This document shows, piece by piece, positions 30,448-34,428 of a stretch of DNA of 64,000 nucleotides (its first letter is position 1; each line of letters starts with the position of its first letter). Position numbers and translations under genes: made by a program. This DNA comes from Chthonomonadia bacterium. Its GTDB lineage: Bacteria > Armatimonadota > HRBIN16. Under the pieces are notes generated by a model that worked only from the letters and a program-made list of their open reading frames with translations, was not told the DNA's origin and did no database searches. Where the stretch lies: assembly GCA_013314755.1 (NCBI GenBank), contig JABUFA010000006.1, positions 1-64,000 of the forward strand, written 5' to 3'.

Positions 30448-31749
30448 CTACAGATTGCCCATTGCACGAAGCAAGCGAGCCTGTGCGAGGAGCAGTTCGG
30501 TTCGCGCTTCAAATAGTCGGGTTCGCGCATCGGTCAGCGCGGCAAGGGCGTCAATCTGCTCCACAAAGGGCGCCTTGCCCTCGTTCACGCGCAGTACCGC
30601 CACACGGTACGCCTCTTCTGCGTCCTGCAGCGCCGCCTCTGCGGTCGCAAGGTTCGAGCGGGCGGTCTGAATGTCCAGCCATGCCCGGCGCACCTCGTTC
30701 TCCACCTGCAACTGCGCCGCTCTCAGGCTGGCTTGCTGTTCCCTCTCTCGCGAGGTGGCTTCGCGCACCTGCGCCTCCAGCTGTCCCCCTGTCCACAGCG
30801 GCACGCTGAGCACCAGTGCCACCGTATAACCCGATTGCGCAGACATTCCCTGCACCTTTGTCCAGTCGCCGGAGGCGGTCAGATACGTCTGCGGCAACAG
30901 TGCTCCCTGCGCGGCACGCCGCTCCAGCTGCCGCATCTGCAAAAGACGCTGTTGCGCCTGCAACAGGGCGCGGTGCTGAAGGGCACGCTGTATCGCCTCA
31001 TCCACATCGCCTGGCAGATGGAACATCGGCTCCTGCAAATCCGCAGGCAGGGTTACCTCGCCCGTCGGCGACACTCCCATGCTGACCTGCAGGTCCAGCA
31101 GGCTTTTCTGAAACTCGTTGCGGGCGGTGGTCAGCTCCTGTTTCGCCTCCGCTTCCGCAGCACGACTGCGCAGAAGGTACGCCAGTGGTACCTTGCCCAC
31201 CTCGTACAGCTGCGTCATGATGCGTGTCTGCTCTTCCTGCGCCTGCAGACGTTGCTCCGCTACTCCGACCAGCTGTCTCTTCAAGAGAGCCTGTAGGTAG
31301 CGTTCGGTGACCTCCAAACGCACCTCCAGCACCATCTCCTGTACTTCCGCGCTCATCGCTTCGCTCTCCCGGCGCGCCGCAGCCGCCATCGCCTGCAGTC
31401 GCCCACCGGTGAACAGCGGCACAGCCAGCTTCATCTGTGCGGAGGCGAACCCGTCACGCTCCGCCATGCGCATCGAGTCGGGCATCGCTCCTGGCGCCGA
31501 GGATAGCATGTTCGTCACCGTTCCCTGCGCCAGCCAACCCGACACCGACACCTGTGGCGACAACATGCCAGCGGTCGCCCGCGCCCGCACGGATGCAGTA
31601 TCCCGCCTCGCCACCACCGCTTGCAGACGGGGGTTCGTCCGCTCCGCCTGCGCAATGGCATCTTGAAGGCTGAGGGGAACCTGCCCCCACGACGGCAAAC
31701 AAAAAGCCACCACCAGAACCGCTTCCAGCACTCTGTGCAAGCGCACCAT
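30448..31749 (-). CDS. TolC-family outer membrane efflux protein
   Basis: A 433-aa periplasmic-tunnel/outer-membrane protein. The signal peptide ends near LPSWGQ. Two internally repeated halves of OEP type follow, each with long coiled helices (for example EVQEMVLEVRLEVTERYLQALL and AAQLQVENEVRRAWLDIQTARSNLATAEAALQDAEEAYRVA) and a strand segment. It implies a diderm envelope. No adjacent inner-membrane pump or adaptor is present, so the partner is encoded elsewhere. CTGGAGGTGT precedes the ATG. Confidence 0.92.
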   Translation of the reverse strand: MVRLHRVLEAVLVVAFCLPSWGQVPLSLQDAIAQAERTNPRLQAVVARRDTASVRARATAGMLSPQVSVSGWLAQGTVTNMLSSAPGAMPDSMRMAERDGFASAQMKLAVPLFTGGRLQAMAAAARRESEAMSAEVQEMVLEVRLEVTERYLQALLKRQLVGVAEQRLQAQEEQTRIMTQLYEVGKVPLAYLLRSRAAEAEAKQELTTARNEFQKSLLDLQVSMGVSPTGEVTLPADLQEPMFHLPGDVDEAIQRALQHRALLQAQQRLLQMRQLERRAAQGALLPQTYLTASGDWTKVQGMSAQSGYTVALVLSVPLWTGGQLEAQVREATSREREQQASLRAAQLQVENEVRRAWLDIQTARSNLATAEAALQDAEEAYRVAVLRVNEGKAPFVEQIDALAALTDARTRLFEARTELLLAQARLLRAMGNL

Positions 31750-31886
31750 ACACCTCCAGAGAAGGTCAATATTTCTATAGGCAATAGAATAATACGCGAA
31801 TATTGTATCGCCATGTGGCAGCGGGAGTCAAGCTCCGGCAGAATCTGTAGGCAGCCCCGCAACCGGAATCTGCGACTTTGGAGTGC

Positions 31887-32128
31887 TGAAGCTTGCTTCA
31901 ACAACCCCTAACCTGCGCCAGCAGGTTTTGCCATGTGTTGCCTGCGACTTTCAGTCGCAAGGTTGAGGTAAAAAAAGCAACCCTGCAACTGGTGGAAGTT
32001 GCGGGCTACCCAAAACAAAGCCTCCTGCGGAGGCTGTAACCTGCTTGAGCAGGTTTCGTTCTGTGTAGCTTGCGATTTTTCCAAGCGCAAGGGCAGGGCG
32101 ACAAGTGTGCTGAAGCACGGCTTCAGCA
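31887..32128. repeat. Array of eight different perfect hairpins
   Basis: The gap 31750-32182 has no gene. Eight perfect short palindromes follow one another: TGAAGC (31887-31900), AACCTGC (31910-31927), TGCGACT (31943-31959), GCAACT (31985-32002), AGCCTCC (32019-32035), AACCTGC again (32038-32055), CTTGCG (32069-32091) and TGCTGAAGC (32108-32128). Loops are 2-11 bases. The first and last share the GAAGC/GCTTC core, and the second and sixth have the same stem with different loops. Compensatory differences between them suggest selection for pairing. Confidence 0.8.
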
Positions 32129-32182
32129 CTCCATATATCTCAGCATAAATGGTACGGAGTGAAGTCTCCGGTGCACAGATGA

Positions 32183-33118
32183 TTACTCACCGGAAGTTTT
32201 GCGCTCAGACGCTCGGGGATGGGCTTTGCGGTAGACCTCTTTCAGCCGTTCGCGGCTGACGTGCGTGTAGATTTGGGTGGTGGTCAGCTGGGCATGTCCA
32301 AGCAGTTCCTGTACTGTACGCAGGTCGGCGCCGCTGTCCAGCAGGTGCGTGGCGAAGGAGTGGCGCAGAGAGTGTGGCGATGGCTTAAAATCACCGCTAC
32401 CGGCGCCCACATATCTGTCCACAATCCGGCGTACACTGCGGTCGGTCAGGCGAGTGCCTCGCCCGTTCAGAAACAGCCATCCTTCGTCGGGTGTTTTGCT
32501 CTTTGCCAGCAGGACGGGGCGTGCTCGTTGCAGGTACTCGCCCAACGCCTCGTGTGCTGCCCTCCCGAAGAGCACCAGGCGCATCTTGTTCCCCTTGCCC
32601 ATGACGCGGATGGTGTGCTGTGCAAAGTCAATATCCTGCAGGCGCAGATTCGTCAGCTCCCCCACGCGCATGCCGGTCGCGTAGAGCAGTTCCAGCACCG
32701 CACGGTCGCGCACCGAGAGCGGGTCGTCTCCGGTGGGCGCAGTGAGCAAACGCTCTACCTCACCCTGGCTCAGCACGCGAGGTAACTGCTGGTCGTGTCG
32801 GGGTGTGCCAACCGCCTGCGCCGGGTTGTGCTTTATCACTCCCTGTGCCTGCAGGTATTTGAAGAAGGCGCGCAGGGCAGCGATTTTGCGCTCGACACTG
32901 CGCGGCGACATCGCCAGCCGATGCAGTTCCGCCAGAAACGCGCGAATGGTGGCGGGTTGGACATCCGCCCAGCCTATCTGGGGAAAGTGCCCCTCCAGGA
33001 ACTGCGCAAACTGCACGATGTCGCGGGCGTACGCACGCAGGGTATGCTCCGACGCACGGCGGCGGTGCTGAAGGTCCAGCACAAAGGCGTCTATCCACGC
33101 ATATCGGTTGTCGCTCAT
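32183..33118 (-). CDS. xerC: Tyrosine recombinase XerC/XerD-type
   Basis: A 311-aa site-specific recombinase that resolves chromosome dimers at dif. The N-terminal SAM-like DNA-binding domain covers about residues 1-95, with EHTLRAYARDIVQFAQFL. The catalytic residues are in place: Arg in ATGMRVGEL, Lys in GKGNKMRLVLFG, His-x-x-Arg in HSLRHSFATHLLDSG, His in LLGHAQLTTTQIYTH, with the nucleophilic Tyr in QIYTHV. It is coupled to trmFO by an ATGA overlap, a pairing common in Firmicutes-like genomes, which supports housekeeping XerC rather than an integrase. Confidence 0.92.
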   Translation of the reverse strand: MSDNRYAWIDAFVLDLQHRRRASEHTLRAYARDIVQFAQFLEGHFPQIGWADVQPATIRAFLAELHRLAMSPRSVERKIAALRAFFKYLQAQGVIKHNPAQAVGTPRHDQQLPRVLSQGEVERLLTAPTGDDPLSVRDRAVLELLYATGMRVGELTNLRLQDIDFAQHTIRVMGKGNKMRLVLFGRAAHEALGEYLQRARPVLLAKSKTPDEGWLFLNGRGTRLTDRSVRRIVDRYVGAGSGDFKPSPHSLRHSFATHLLDSGADLRTVQELLGHAQLTTTQIYTHVSRERLKEVYRKAHPRASERKTSGE

Positions 33119-34428
33119 GCCTCCAGCTCCTGCAAAAACCGTTGCAGGGAGCGCTGTGCTCGCTCGACCTTCATCGCGATGCGCTGGTGGCGGTCGCGCA
33201 CCGGCGGTTCTGGTTCGGGCAGTAAGCCAAAGTTCGCGTTCATCGGCTGGAAGTCCTTGCCGGCGTAGTGGCTGATATAGTCCAGCAGTGCGCCCATCAT
33301 AGTATCCGGGGGTAGCGACACAGCAGGCAATCCGCGTACCAGCCTCGCCGCGTTCAGCCCGGCAACGATACCGCACATCGCGCTTTCAATATAGCCTTCC
33401 ACGCCCGTAATCTGCCCGGCGAAGAAGATGCCGGGGTCACTGCGCAGTTGCAGGGTCGGCTCCAGCAGGGAGGGCGAATGGATGTAGGTGTTTCGATGCA
33501 TCACCCCGTAGCGCACAAACTCGGCGTTTTCCAGACCGGGTATCAGCCGAAACACGCGCTTCTGCTCGCCCCATTTCATGCGTGTCTGGCATCCTACCAG
33601 CCCGTACAGCGTGCCCTGCAGGTTCTCCTGGCGCAGCTGCACCACCGCGTAGGGACGTTTGCCGGTGCGTGGGTCAATCAGCCCGACCGGCTTGAAGCGA
33701 CTGAAGCGGAGAGCTTCCCTGCCCCGTGCGGCAATCTCCTCGATGGGCAGACAGCCCTCAAAGTAACGCGCCTCTTCGAAGTCGTGAGGTTGTATCGTCT
33801 CTGCCGAGAGCAGGGCATCCACAAAGGCTTCATACTCCTCCCGCGTCATGGGGCAGTTCAGATAAGCCGCCTCGCCCTTGCCGTAGCGCGAGGCAACAAA
33901 GATACGCTCCATGTTCAACGTCAGGGCGTCGACGATGGGCGACACCGCATCGTAAAAGTACAGTCGCTGGCTACCTGTCAACCGCCCAATCGCCTGCGCC
34001 AGCGCATCAGAGGTCAGCGGACCGGTGGCGAGGATCAGCGGGCGGCTGTCGGGAATGTCGGTGATCTCTTCCCGCACGATTTCCACCAGCGGGTGCGCCT
34101 CCAGCCGACGGGTGACTATCTGTGCAAACACCTCGCGGTCTACTGCCAGCGCCTCGCCTGCGGGCACTGCGGCTTCTTCGGCGCACTCCAGCACCAGCGA
34201 ACCGAACTGGCGCATCTCCCACTTCAAAAGCCCCGACGCCGTGCTGAGCAGATTGGACTTGAAGGAGTTAGAGCATACCGGCTCCGCCAGGTACGGTGTC
34301 TGGTGAACAGGCGTCTGGCGCACGGGGCGCATTTCAAACAGGCGTACGCGCACCCCTGCTTTTGCCGCCGCCCATGCGGCTTCTGCTCCCGCAAATCCAC
34401 CACCGACAATGGTTACGCCCTTCTCCAT
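33115..34428 (-). CDS. trmFO: Methylenetetrahydrofolate-tRNA-(uracil-5-)-methyltransferase TrmFO
   Basis: A 437-aa flavoprotein that makes m5U54 in the T loop of tRNA from methylene-THF and a reduced flavin. It is GidA-like: VTIVGGGFAGAEAAWAAAKAG (FAD motif, residues about 5-25), LFEMRPVRQTPVHQT, LAEPVCSNSFKS and the C-terminal AGQITGVEGYIESAMCGIVAGLNAA. The conserved Cys of the NCPMTREEYEAF segment is present. It is read leftward into xerC with a 4-base overlap. Confidence 0.96.
   Translation of the reverse strand: MEKGVTIVGGGFAGAEAAWAAAKAGVRVRLFEMRPVRQTPVHQTPYLAEPVCSNSFKSNLLSTASGLLKWEMRQFGSLVLECAEEAAVPAGEALAVDREVFAQIVTRRLEAHPLVEIVREEITDIPDSRPLILATGPLTSDALAQAIGRLTGSQRLYFYDAVSPIVDALTLNMERIFVASRYGKGEAAYLNCPMTREEYEAFVDALLSAETIQPHDFEEARYFEGCLPIEEIAARGREALRFSRFKPVGLIDPRTGKRPYAVVQLRQENLQGTLYGLVGCQTRMKWGEQKRVFRLIPGLENAEFVRYGVMHRNTYIHSPSLLEPTLQLRSDPGIFFAGQITGVEGYIESAMCGIVAGLNAARLVRGLPAVSLPPDTMMGALLDYISHYAGKDFQPMNANFGLLPEPEPPVRDRHQRIAMKVERAQRSLQRFLQELEA

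Follow-up and report, generated by a model that had tools for sequence, protein, structure and literature searches.

A mosaic array of probably mobile palindromes between xerC and tolC in a Chthonomonadia bacterium

Why should eight hairpins with different stems stand in a row in one intergenic gap, between genes for a XerC-type recombinase and a TolC-family efflux protein? The window (the whole 64,000-nucleotide stretch that was analysed) belongs to a 3.95-Mb assembly of 88 contigs. The original prediction, made from the letters of this stretch, offered either a repeat family that keeps its pairing by compensatory change or a structure that serves the neighbouring genes. The array is, in our view, quite probably a BIME-like mosaic of non-autonomous mobile palindromes that have accumulated in the gap.

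Eight stems of 6–10 bp were found within 31887–32129, both by direct reading and by script. Sequence simulated with the same dinucleotide steps contains 0.41 ± 0.60 hairpins per 242 bases and at most 3 (500 simulations; a hairpin was counted when it had a perfect stem of at least 6 bp and a loop of at most 8 nt). The predicted run of eight head-to-tail hairpins in about 240 bases was thus confirmed. It is the densest 240-base bin of the window, with folding z-scores of about -8 on both strands. Seven of the hairpins, beginning at 31887, 31910, 31943, 31985, 32019, 32038 and 32107, are perfect as claimed, but in the eighth (32069–32091), a decayed copy of the hairpin at 31943, the loop enclosed by the perfect 6-bp stem (CTTGCG/CGCAAG) is 11 nt long. 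The stems do differ, as had been stated, but the hairpins are less independent than was thought: the one at 32107 repeats that at 31887, the one at 32038, correctly predicted to share its stem with 31910, is a second copy of it, and the two at 31985 and 32019 are related as a pair, in inverted and diverged form, to those at 31943 and 31910. The core that the first and last hairpins were said to share proved to be part of a 14-bp perfect inverted repeat joining them (31879–31892 and 32120–32133).

Table 1. Features of the xerC–tolC gap and its flanking genes (window coordinates; model E-values are rough).
Feature	Position	Strand	Remarks
TolC-family outer membrane efflux protein gene	30448..31749	-	PF02321, TIGR01844
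tolC promoter-like element and palindrome	31773..31831	-	TTGACT-18-TACAAT at 31831-31802, then palindrome TTCTATtgcctATAGAA at 31789-31773; outside array
Whole hairpin array	31879..32133	.	Ends are a 14-bp perfect inverted repeat
Hairpin A, GGAG-tagged, REP-like palindrome	31879..31903	+	TGGAGTGCTGAAGCttGCTTCAACA; A2 variant flanks RAYT
Half-cassette 1	31910..31959	+	Model R1, 72.0 bits, E 2e-18; hairpin B 31910-31927, 15-nt linker with GTTGCC 31937-31942, hairpin C 31943-31959
Complete mirrored four-hairpin cassette D-E-B-C without A insertion	31984..32091	.	2-nt E/B junction
Half-cassette 2, inverted	31984..32035	-	Model R1, 59.2 bits; hairpin D 31985-32002, CTAC tag 32006-32009, 16-nt linker, hairpin E 32019-32035
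Half-cassette 3, partly decayed	32038..32091	+	Model R1, 45.9 bits over 32038-32089; B copy 32038-32055, GTAG 32065-32068, C copy with broken stem 32069-32091
Hairpin A, second copy, inverted	32107..32133	-	GGAG tag, - strand, 32129-32132
XerC-type tyrosine recombinase gene	32183..33376	-	TIGR02224, 348 bits; true start probably near 33100

The constituents of the array recur throughout the genome. The exact B hairpin (AACCTGCnnnnGCAGGTT) is present 95 times and the exact C hairpin (TGCGAnTnnnAnTCGCA) 111 times, against none of either in a reversed control; A palindromes number about 200–206, against 0–1 in the control, and are intergenic at the loci read. The original prediction had regarded single, fixed copies scattered over the genome as the mark of an ordinary repeat accumulation. 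BLAST with a 300-base query did find more than 40 loci (many 75–88% identical over 110–260 bases), but they are ordered mosaic arrays and not fixed single copies. Several lie at contig ends, as repeats in assemblies do.

The stretches read contain 45 clusters, in most of which D, E, B and C are represented, and their grammar is strict: D and E are separated by 16 nt, next come 0–3 nt or one A hairpin, and next B and C separated by 15 nt. Successive modules meet head to head, mostly with 22–33 nt from C to D (C>-22/33-D<), in arrays of up to 15 hairpins. The E-D pair is the inverted homologue of B-C, and the resulting order, D<-16-E-B-15-C>, gives the two inverted units with a spacer, capable of folding into a hairpin or clover and often clustered in tandem, by which BIMEs and REPINs are recognized. 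Among 90 C and D stems, 40 are GCGATT/AATCGC, 31 GCAACT/AGTTGC, 14 GCGACT/AGTCGC and 5 mixed; an AGCCTCC hairpin accompanies the GCAACT stems. A CRISPR repeat was considered and rejected, since the match to CRISPR-DR28 is sub-threshold (25.3 bits against 35), the spacers are conserved and the order is mosaic. Further abundant hairpin families of the same genome were seen on contig G000:C66, namely CCTCTCCCCGcgtCGGGGAGAGG (29 copies in 449 kb), CCCCTTCCCTgcgAGGGAAGGGG (13), GGGCAACC..GGTTGCCC (11) and CCCTCTCC..GGAGAGGG (10).

Two nested layers can be told apart, the A hairpins and the cassette. There is one Y1-type transposase in the genome, a protein of 183 aa that matches NCBIfam NF047646 (REP-associated tyrosine transposase, RAYT) with 104.6 bits (cut-off 80). 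Ten of the genome's 12 A2 hairpins (GCGGAAGC..GCTTCCGC) lie beside this gene on contig C57, six on one side and four on the other, an arrangement with a chance probability of about 1e-34. A and A2 are one compensated base pair apart and have loops and foot in common (TTTGGAG..., TATGGAG...). A is a palindrome of high intergenic copy number, and A2 has copies on both sides of the RAYT, as RAYT-associated REPs do, but the foot of A is GGAG, sometimes GGAC, and not the GTAG or GTGG that described REPs carry (PMC2817692, PMC3686654). Because the features are REP-like and the foot is not, we regard A as a REP-like element with a variant tag. Its mobilizer is most likely the genome's single RAYT-type HUH transposase, acting on A as a folded single strand of DNA. 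The RAYT motifs NHYH and YVHYNP resemble subclass 2.8 of PMC6006769, which is a lead only.

At the E/B junction, nine sites are empty (0–3 nt), and A is present fourteen times in one orientation and five times in the opposite one, as an insert that is always 35–40 nt long; the site in the window array (32036–32037) is empty. D-E-B-C units without A were also found in related species. Together with the empty junctions, these are most simply explained if A was inserted later into an older cassette. The nesting of the two palindrome families thus takes place at one exact junction, and the only RAYT of this genome stands amid variants of just one of the two.

In two relatives, different hairpins flank the RAYT, GCACGCTaaAGCGTGC and GTAGTGCAGGCTttAGCCTGC at L083 (1210–2250, genome G005) and GTAGCCGCAGGCTttAGCCTGCG at L084 (1340, genome G009); each species has its own REP type. 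In related species (L086 at 1651–1800, L087, L091, L093), hairpins such as GGGGCAACC..GGTTGCCCC and GGGGCAGAC..GTCTGCCCC lie inside RAYT-like open frames, a location of REPs that has been described for subclass 2.4 (PMC6006769).

The cassette itself is built of a module and its inverted counterpart; in the module a linker of 15–16 nt, containing a GTWG tag, separates two hairpins. A covariance model (R1) was built on the 50-nt half-cassette, the layout of which is constant: a hairpin A-R-Y-C-N-S-C, TTYGT, about six free bases, GTWG(C)CC, and a hairpin GC-G-A-Y-T. The half-cassette is usually adjoined, before or after, by its own mirror image. In this genome the foot tag of C and D is GTAG in 65 of 90 cases and GTTG in 23; GTTG is found in most relatives. 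At one locus of another genus (L187, 1451–1549) the halves stand head to head with a 3-nt gap, whereas the usual order is tail-to-tail. An attC-like reading was rejected, as the core GTTRRRY does not, by reading, fit GTTGCCC.

The stem letters vary and the pairing is kept. In an alignment of 43 distinct rows, fitted to the model, pairing is kept in 97.8% of pair cells and both sides vary in 11 of 13 pairs. Double-changed cells number 115 (32 ± 6.8 in shuffles), and G-U occurs once. A MAFFT alignment of 26 sequences gave 40 double changes against 14.5 ± 3.5 when shuffled, and 97–98% of stem pairs are kept in both alignments. The compensatory change proposed in the original prediction is therefore borne out. 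On the tagged strand, mismatches in the window's genome are GT in 22 cases and AC in 18, equally rare and with no RNA-like wobble bias. Since G-U is also nearly absent, the pairing seems to belong to palindromes in DNA and not to an RNA. Selection on foldability while the stem letters drift would lead to compensatory changes of this kind. One DNA element in many genera, with drifting stems and pairing almost without G-U, amounts to a natural covariation experiment; such drift suggests that DNA is recognized in folded form, and what an enzyme may read is to be seen in the constant letters of linker and tag.

With the covariance model, half-cassettes were detected in 42 of 251 genomes of the phylum (expected false genomes about 0.3–1.3), representing 28 genera and often with more than 20 copies per genome. 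The model also detected the half-cassette in Nostoc plasmids (31.8 and 29.0 bits) and, more weakly, in Allocoleopsis, so the cassette reaches Cyanobacteriota. BLAST with a hand-typed consensus matched three cyanobacterial plasmids, and the model search of plasmids is independent of that query. Real cassette copies gave no BLAST matches to plasmids, nor did the consensus match phage. A strict DNA pattern had two matches in GTDB contigs, of which the model scored one at chance level and missed the other, and a literature search by sequence string returned no relevant match. The small dispersed repeats of cyanobacteria that were treated by Elhai et al. in 2008 are said to be very small and mobile and to insert into other repeats.

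Comparison of relatives bears on mobility. The order xerC–tolC is kept in four related species, the gap of which is without such hairpins. Between the sister species G003 and G005, one cassette copy is present in G005 and absent from G003 at the same gene end; a clean empty site, exact excision or a target rule was sought there, but the edges are ragged and none could be read. In these two species the cassette forms the core of a MITE of about 180 bp with terminal inverted repeats (TIRs) AGTACTCTGTCAA...TTGACAAAGTACT and TA at its ends. These TIRs were not seen around the cassette in the window's genome or in the copies read from other genera, and the MITE would therefore be one vehicle of the cassette and not its definition. 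Elements of about 130, 193–206 and 228 bp in G003 and G005 (L237, L233, L243, L247, L278) have the same TIR, AGTACTYTGTCAA, as the MITE that bears the cassette, so that several MITE families may depend on one transposase, as yet unseen. Seven genes were found between neighbouring cassettes of the two species (cellulase-like, DNA methylase, type III restriction subunit, M50 peptidase, MscS channel, GH127 and PhyH), none of them a transposase. We suggest that D-E-B-C is an older mirrored cassette whose copies spread inside genomes throughout the phylum, probably with the help of an enzyme recognizing folded hairpins and linker, or as passengers of MITEs, as in the two sister species.

That the RAYT also moves the cassette is not supported. 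None of 39 loci with RAYT-like genes in the phylum has a cassette module within 1.5 kb, and RAYTs above the cut-off occur in 16 of the 42 genomes with the module and in 5 of the 20 without it (p = 0.40, 62 genomes); in G003, a genome of 100% completeness, the module was matched at least 23 times and no RAYT-like gene was found at E <= 1e-6. The same results bear on a wider proposal, that everything here, cassette included, is a classical RAYT-driven REP/REPIN family the cognate RAYT of which has been lost from these genomes. The GTAG/GTTG foot of C and D, the inverted doublets and the intergenic clusters would suit it, and REPtron loss has been described (PMC3733652). Given that neither proximity to a RAYT nor association with one was found, and that a second hairpin at fixed spacing falls outside the REP definition, we consider this proposal unlikely. 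A separate and so far unnamed superfamily of mobile palindromes, present in at least two phyla, read through two fixed-spaced hairpins and GTWG and moved by an enzyme other than the known RAYTs, is a tentative alternative that we rate somewhat below even. What moves REP-like DNA without a RAYT becomes a directly testable question.

The proposed stabilization of tolC and xerC mRNA ends is not supported. The tolC promoter-like element lies between the array and the tolC start, which places the array outside the likely tolC transcript; this element and the palindrome TTCTATtgcctATAGAA are kept in the four relatives, while the rest of the gap is not conserved. (The palindrome, just downstream of the promoter, is a candidate operator for the efflux gene.) Arrays sit before, behind and between many genes: for the 32 that could be scored on both sides, the gap is tandem in 18 cases, divergent in 9 and convergent in 5, by rough gene calls. 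The array is thus not read as a device for xerC or tolC mRNA, and a role at the xerC 3' end, should there be one, is not the reason for the element's existence. A transcribed structure that ends or stabilizes the xerC transcript, or is processed into small RNAs, could still appeal to the array's beginning 55 bases past the xerC stop, to one terminator-like hairpin with a T-rich tail (32035–32019) and to three cyanobacterial copies 8–36 nt past stop codons. It is improbable in view of the hairpin-free gap of the relatives, the divergent gaps, which have no adjoining 3' end, and the structured-RNA test, in which no Rfam match came near threshold and the covariation in the 43 cassette sequences, almost free of G-U, was not of the G-U-tolerant kind. 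Symmetric palindromes in alternating orientation and BIME-like order might instead suggest a double-stranded protein-binding array, a nucleoid or gyrase site kept for chromosome organization, and BIMEs of E. coli are targets of IHF, gyrase and Pol I (cited in PMC2817692). Array positions are not conserved, however, and stem letters that change freely under kept pairing fit recognition of a folded strand better than of duplex sequence, which makes such a role very improbable. The preferred reading remains a mosaic of mobile palindromes.

Among known systems, MITEs (PMC10969869) resemble the cassette-bearing element of G003 and G005 in its TIRs and TA flanks, but elsewhere the cassette lacks these TIRs. 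The "double-foot" REPs of TnpA-REP subclass 2.4 likewise combine GTAG and CTAC in one unit; theirs is one hairpin with a tag at each end, whereas the cassette has four hairpins with inward tags (PMC6006769). Tail-to-tail dimers of GTAG REPs with structured spacers (PMC3733652) share inward-facing GTAG, differing partner stems and hairpins in the spacer. There, structured spacers are described family by family, while the spacer hairpins and distances of the cassette are constant in 28 genera; the cyanobacterial families GTAG-12/15/16 of that source may be identical with the cassette, the cyanobacterial copies of which may already be named. From the REP/BIME/REPIN and RAYT (TnpA-REP) systems (PMC2817692, PMC3116915, PMC3733652, PMC8266576), A differs in its GGAG, and the cassette in a second hairpin 15–16 nt before the GTWG-tagged one and in having no adjoining RAYT. 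The likeness extends to short intergenic palindromes, a foot tetranucleotide, inverted doublets, mosaic clusters, compensatory stem changes and, for A, a single-copy RAYT between palindromes.
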